The position numbers were made by a program, and so were the translations under genes. Shown in pieces: positions 59,856 through 61,548 of a DNA stretch of 64,000 nucleotides. This stretch comes from Hylemonella sp. (GTDB lineage: Bacteria > Pseudomonadota > Gammaproteobacteria > Burkholderiales > Burkholderiaceae_C), in assembly GCA_030680575.1 (NCBI GenBank), contig JAUXVI010000013.1:62001-126000 (forward strand). Direction: 5' to 3'. The notes beneath the pieces were generated by a model. It ran no database searches, was not told the origin of the DNA, and saw nothing but the letters and a program-made list of their open reading frames with translations. How positions within the stretch are numbered: the first letter of the stretch is position 1; each line of letters opens with the position of its first letter.

Positions 59856-59888
59856 CACCCGGGCCGGCCGGCCCGGGTGATGGTTTTT
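59856..59888 (+). terminator. Rho-independent terminator after the TAXI gene
   Basis: CACCCGGGCC, GGCC loop, GGCCCGGGTG: a 10-bp perfect stem followed on the plus strand by ATGGTTTTT. The T-run reaches the stop codon of the convergent ettA gene. Confidence 0.85.
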
Positions 59889-61548
59889 ACTTGAGTGCCT
59901 TGAAGCGCACGCGGTGCGGCTTGGCGCCTTCTTCACCCAAACGTTTCTTCTTGTCGGCCTCGTACTCCTGGTAGTTGCCGTCGAAGAAGGTCCACTGGCT
60001 GTCGCCTTCGGCGGCCAGGATGTGGGTACAGATACGGTCGAGGAACCAGCGGTCGTGGCTGATGACCATGACCGAACCAGCGAACTCCAGCAGCGCATCT
60101 TCCAGCGCGCGCAGGGTTTCCACGTCGAGGTCGTTGGACGGCTCGTCCAGCAGCAGCACGTTGCCGCCAGCGATCAGGGTCTTGGCCAGGTGCAGACGGC
60201 CGCGCTCACCACCCGACAGCGTGCCCACGCGCTTTTGCTGGTCGCCGCCGTTGAAGTTGAAACGGCCGCAGTAGGCACGGCTGGCCATCTGGAACTTGCC
60301 GACGGTCAGGATGTCCAGGCCGCCGGAGACGTCTTCCCACACGGTCTTCTCGTTCGCCAGATCGTCACGGGTCTGGTCGACGAAGGCCATCTTCACTGTC
60401 TGGCCGATCTTGACCTCGCCGCTGTCCGGCTGTTCCTTGCCGGCGATCATCTTGAACAGCGTGGACTAGCCGGCGCCGTTGGGGCCGATGATGCCGACGA
60501 TGGCACCCGCCGGCACCTTGAAGCTCAGGTTGTCGATCAGCAGGCGGTCGCCGAATGACTTGCTGACGTTCTTGAACTCGATGACTTCATTGCCCAGGCG
60601 GTCGGCCACAGGGATGAAGATTTCCTGCGTCTCGTTGCGCTTCTGGTATTCGAAATCGGACAGTTCCTCGAAGCGGGCCAGACGGGCTTTGCTCTTGGCC
60701 TGGCGTGCCTTGGGGTTCTGGCGCGACCATTCCAGTTCTTTCTTCAGGGCCTTGGCGCGCGACTCTTCACCCTTCTGTTCCTGCTCCAGACGGGCCTGCT
60801 TCTGCTCCAGCCATTCGCTGTAGTTGCCTTTGTAGGGAATGCCGGAGCCGCGGTCCATTTCCAGAATCCACTCGGCCGCGTTGTCCAGGAAGTAGCGGTC
60901 GTGGGTGATGGCCACCACGGTGCCGGAATAACGCTGCAGGAACTGCTCCAGCCAGTCCACCGATTCGGCGTCCAGGTGGTTGGTCGGCTCGTCCAGCAGC
61001 AGCATGTCGGGTTTGGACAGCAGCAGGCGGCACAGGGCCACACGACGCTTCTCGCCGCCGGAGAGCTTGCCGATGATGGCGTCCCAGGGCGGCAGGCGCA
61101 GCGCGTCGGCGGCAATTTCCAGTTGGTGTTCGCCGCCATCGCCGGCGGTGGCGATGATGGCTTCGAGCTTGGCCTGCTCGGCGGCCAGGGCGTCGAAGTC
61201 GGCGTTTTCGTCCGCGTAGGCGGCGTACACCTCTTCCAGACGCGCCTGCGCAGCCTTCGACTCACCCATGCCGCCTTCGACGGCCTGGCGCACGGTCTCG
61301 TTCGGGTCGAGCTGCGGCTCCTGCGGCAGGTAACCGATCTTCAGGCCGGCCATGGGAATGGCTTCGCCCTCGAATTCCTTGTCGACGCCGGCCATGATCT
61401 TGAGCAGCGTGGACTTGCCCGAGCCGTTGAGGCCGAGCACGCCGATCTTGGCACCAGGGAAGAAGCTCAAGGAAATGTCCTTGAGGATGTGACGCTTCGG
61501 CGGCACGATCTTGCCGAGGCGGTTCATGGAAAAGACGTATTGAGCCAT
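59887..61548 (-). pseudogene. ettA: EttA-type ABC-F translation factor with an in-frame amber codon
   Basis: 554 codons, the normal EttA length, but codon 361 (60466-60468) is TAG. First ABC domain intact: Walker [10 protein letters not shown] (K45), signature LSGGEKRR, Walker [12 protein letters not shown]; then the arm and linker. In the second domain the Walker A reads GPNGAG-stop-ST, so the stop replaces exactly the conserved lysine (AAG to TAG). The frame then continues with intact [19 protein letters not shown] and a normal C-terminus (FKALK). EttA binds the ribosomal E site and throttles translation at low energy. Without read-through the product loses its second ATPase site. A sequencing or assembly error is the simplest alternative. 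Confidence 0.88.

Follow-up and report, generated by a model that had tools for sequence, protein, structure and literature searches.

An in-frame TAG at the second Walker A lysine codon of ettA in a draft Hylemonella genome

Contig 19 of a draft Hylemonella sp. genome contains the DNA analyzed here (64,000 nucleotides; hereafter the window). The draft totals 3.42 Mb in 58 contigs, with 93.17% completeness and 3.75% contamination. On the minus strand, translation and profile matches place a frame for ettA, which encodes the ABC-F protein energy-dependent translational throttle A, at 59887..61548. The frame opens with ATG, closes with TAA, and spans 554 codons, with a single interruption—i.e. 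an in-frame TAG at codon 361 (60466..60468, minus strand), within the motif GPNGAG*ST and at the position of the second Walker A lysine. EttA proteins carry two such lysines, one per nucleotide-binding domain, and only one is encoded here: the first P-loop is intact, with K45 as AAG, and the codon of the second lysine is TAG.

The interruption leaves two minus-strand open reading frames, each present in the ORF list and matched by a profile. The ORF before the stop (60466..61548) encodes 360 aa, which, judging from domain limits, we take to comprise the first nucleotide-binding domain, the linker, and the start of the second domain. The putative ORF after the stop (59887..60450; 187 aa) would hold what is left of the second nucleotide-binding domain, minus the Walker A lysine, and its first ATG is located 15 bases downstream of the TAG. 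Against NCBIfam NF008775, residues 1–360 reach 617.5 bits, above the cut-off of 599. The 187-aa ORF covers profile positions 369–554 with 335 bits, under the whole-protein cut-off, as expected of a fragment. With TIGR03719, the 360-aa piece reaches 600.4 against a cut-off of 806.75, and the 187-aa piece is under the cut-offs of both profiles. The intact ettA product of the closest relative (G024) scores 983.7 bits against the NF008775 cut-off of 599, and also passes the TIGR03719 cut-off. As such, the original prediction of a full-length ettA frame with a TAG at the second Walker A lysine is confirmed by translation and profile matches, with both pieces following, in order, the profile of this ABC-F ATPase of the ribosomal E site. 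A second intact ettA was not found in DNA and protein searches of the same genome (G000), where the next-best DNA match spans 128 bases at 76% and, at the protein level, ABC-F-like paralogues come next, with 42% and 34% identity.

Codon 361 was compared among 99 relative loci, of which 19 derive from the genome comparison and the others are the best 80 of 575 named relatives. Names within this best 80 include Curvibacter, Rhodoferax, Hylemonella, and Limnohabitans, all Comamonadaceae, and many of these relatives are metagenome bins. A total of 96 loci cover the codon (89 distinct stretches, once 7 duplicates are removed), and all 96 have lysine there, as AAA or AAG, and contain no internal stop where they align; the TAG that sets this gene apart from the EttA family is found in none of them. 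The original prediction pointed to ettA in close relatives as a check, and these loci show lysine at the codon and no conserved TAG. The 3 loci that do not cover codon 361 are L018, whose contig ends at ettA codon 357, and L010 and L025, which lie on contigs of equal length, are probably one organism, and have a run of Ns (309 in all) immediately 3' of the lysine codon. The Ns could stem from a gap in the assembly or from masking in the collection, and are not counted as evidence of assembly difficulty. A further observation is that 3 of the 24 same-genus genomes (G004, G009, and G022; 80, 98, and 72% complete, respectively), as well as G032 (100% complete) and G030 (68%) from the same order, have only paralogue-level best matches to EttA, which may reflect draft gaps or natural losses.

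The closest relative has AAA at codon 361 and 95% DNA identity, and its ettA aligns over codons 1–553 with 99.3% protein identity, with no indel or frameshift between the two halves. Judged from codon changes, the sequence past the stop is as conserved as the sequence before it, with no sign of drift downstream. Specifically, between G024 and this gene, synonymous codon changes outnumber nonsynonymous ones by 42 to 2 in codons 1–360 and by 29 to 1 in the 192 codons from 362 to 553. In six further relatives, synonymous changes also exceed nonsynonymous changes on both sides of the stop. Three positions set this ettA apart from all others among the 8 genes compared: residues 158 and 373, and the stop at 361. 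It had been claimed from the sequence that a single base separates TAG from AAG and that no further decay is visible, and both statements are borne out. Given that the downstream half has not drifted, the stop is either very young or not real.

Other stops around the locus were sought by comparison with G024, using three filters: frame length (window only), base composition, and an excess of synonymous changes (124 kb). Under the length filter (100 aa or more), stops appear in many frames of the window. With base composition, 6 of 92 tested frames have a stop, including ettA (codon 361/553) and frames with stops at codons 524/599, 542/551, 30/286, 27/178, and 62/144; besides ettA, two of these (524/599 and 62/144) are outside the first 30 and last 10 codons. 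The synonymous-excess filter finds a stop in 9 of 93 frames across the 124 kb—i.e. ettA, five at codons 15–58, and three within 2–11 codons of the frame end.

Late starts, antisense frames, or alignment account for most of the stops outside ettA, with the stop at codon 58/384 standing apart. For example, the frames with stops at codons 30/286 and 27/178 likely have a later start after the stop (MSYLNQ... and MFKHIL..., respectively), and the stop at codon 15/264 is near the frame start. The codon-524 frame is antisense to an ABC-transporter ATPase-like frame, the codon 62/144 frame lies inside a 364-aa frame on the opposite strand, and the codon 81/91 frame is antisense to a 525-aa frame. For codons 38/701, 21/504, and 290/291, no stop appears in the protein alignments. 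The stop at codon 542/551 is likely a genuine truncation: on the same contig, outside the window, a CAG to TAG change relative to G024 (C19:51682) removes the last ten codons of a frame that, by eye, resembles glutamate–cysteine ligase. Widespread regional decay was rejected, as the other stops are found near frame ends or in frames that overlap more convincing ones, codon 58/384 again apart. Within the 124 kb compared with G024, the ettA stop appears to be the only one that can be placed in the body of a gene.

The locus thus presents one base, one stop, and a remaining gene that is intact and constrained. The reading we find most likely, though by no means secure, is that this single-base nonsense substitution has no biological function and would be a base wrongly called in the draft consensus or an allele from a minority strain; the majority sequence of the population would then have lysine at codon 361. 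We lean toward ranking an error or minority allele above a real recent mutation. In favor of this ranking are the lysine in 96 of 96 covering loci (from the 19 and the best 80 of 575), a gene that shows no other decay, a stop that is alone in lying well inside its frame among the 9 found in 93 frames, and the draft state of the assembly, with its 58 contigs and 3.75% contamination. The 30-base P-loop sequence also has 14 other places in the genome within 3 mismatches, and given these copies and the contig of L018 that ends close by, codon 361 may be an awkward spot for assemblers. The T itself was not copied from another P-loop, because the lysine codon is AAG in 13 of these places and AAA in 1; a paralogous origin, carried by 0 of the 14, was therefore rejected. 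Counted against an error is the frame at C19:59163, with its stop at codon 58 of 384.

The locus resembles a nonsense-mutation pseudogene or an assembly base error in that it has one premature stop, in one genome, with relatives intact and no further decay. It differs in that a catalytic lysine codon is hit, an outcome that chance can explain. The consequence is mainly for annotation—i.e. one gene of a draft genome needs caution. Of the options raised by the original prediction, the evidence favors three: a base-call error, a mixed population, and a recent knockout.

A real and very recent nonsense mutation ranks second and is a serious possibility. It would make this ettA either a knockout or the source of a 360-aa fragment that retains a single whole nucleotide-binding domain, a loss that would be tolerated because ettA is dispensable. 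One study describes the loss of EttA in E. coli as tolerated with conditional costs: it reduces stationary-phase fitness and causes salt sensitivity on some carbon sources, and is not lethal (PMC11282234). Residues 158 and 373, also unique to this gene, are consistent with a real mutation, as are the same-genus genomes (3 of 24, one of them 98% complete) and the two of the same order that have paralogue-level EttA matches only; however, the missing copies in these other drafts may be gaps. EttA is reportedly likely non-essential in Staphylococcus aureus (PMC7499846). Against a real mutation, the gene has no second lesion, and with 1 nonsynonymous change in 192 downstream codons, only an extremely young mutation would fit. 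If real, it would make this environmental-type Comamonadaceae bacterium a natural ettA knockout.

The position of the stop was originally taken to argue against a random mutation, a claim that our counts do not sustain. With codon 361 taken as AAG, a single substitution can turn 148 of the 553 codons into a stop, by 169 different changes, 110 of which yield TAG. Of these codons, at least six are presumably catalytic or nucleotide-contacting (K45, K361, E187, E469, Q76, and Q392). About 4% of random nonsense changes (6/148) would therefore hit one of these six codons, a share that is unremarkable for a site chosen after the fact and leaves the improbability argument weak. The argument also does not favor design, because a stop anywhere removes everything downstream, and stops further upstream would be equally damaging.

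Read-through of the TAG and a split protein are, even jointly, very improbable. In the first case, a suppressor tRNA or a programmed event would yield full-length EttA conditionally, or another residue at position 361, and we consider this highly unlikely. The frame is intact and conserved on either side of the TAG, and an in-frame stop inside a conserved frame is also what known recoding looks like (suppressor tRNA, or the pyrrolysine and selenocysteine type). Here, by contrast, the site is not conserved, no decoding tRNA was found, RF1 is present, and TAG is in use as a terminator. Specifically, the original prediction suggested a look for amber-decoding tRNA genes, and none of the 38 tRNA matches, all typed, has a CTA anticodon, in a set that is incomplete (Ile and Phe tRNAs are also unseen) and from a genome that is 93% complete. 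The RF1 gene (prfA) scores over its cut-off at C51:81179-82249. TAG terminates the neighboring 773-aa frame (61622–63943) and 16 of 87 coding-like ORFs in the 124 kb around the site, the truncated ettA piece probably being among the 16, and it also ends the ettA of the relatives L005 and L006.

The same site was searched in 399 genomes of the family with a strict DNA pattern for the second P-loop that allows C, G, or T as the first base of the lysine codon. The pattern is found in 5 of the 399 genomes, as CAG in 4 and as TAG in 1, the genome studied here. The 38 typed tRNAs, RF1, the use of TAG as a gene terminator, and the lysine of the relatives led us to reject recoding, and the read-through option is not supported. 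It is more improbable still that the strain would tune EttA by leaky amber translation at the second ATPase site, with the full-length throttle low and condition-dependent. As a separate observation, the CAG of this search corresponds to GPNGAGQTT, with Gln for the Walker A lysine, in the DNA of G232, G372, G424, and G429 (loci L153, L156, L154, and L157, respectively).

A split EttA, in which the 360-aa protein would cooperate with a 187-aa protein whose translation restarts at the ATG 15 bases downstream of the TAG, is likewise extremely improbable, since the second piece would have no Walker A lysine of its own domain, no ribosome-binding site is evident by eye, and 0 of the 96 covering relative loci (from the 19 and the best 80 of 575) have a stop in the gene.

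The G024 contig used in these comparisons is mostly colinear with the window. Three stretches of the window, at about 5564–8535, 28628–30284, and 37044–38501, have no DNA match longer than 200 bases in that contig, which in turn carries about 4.8 kb of extra sequence at two places.
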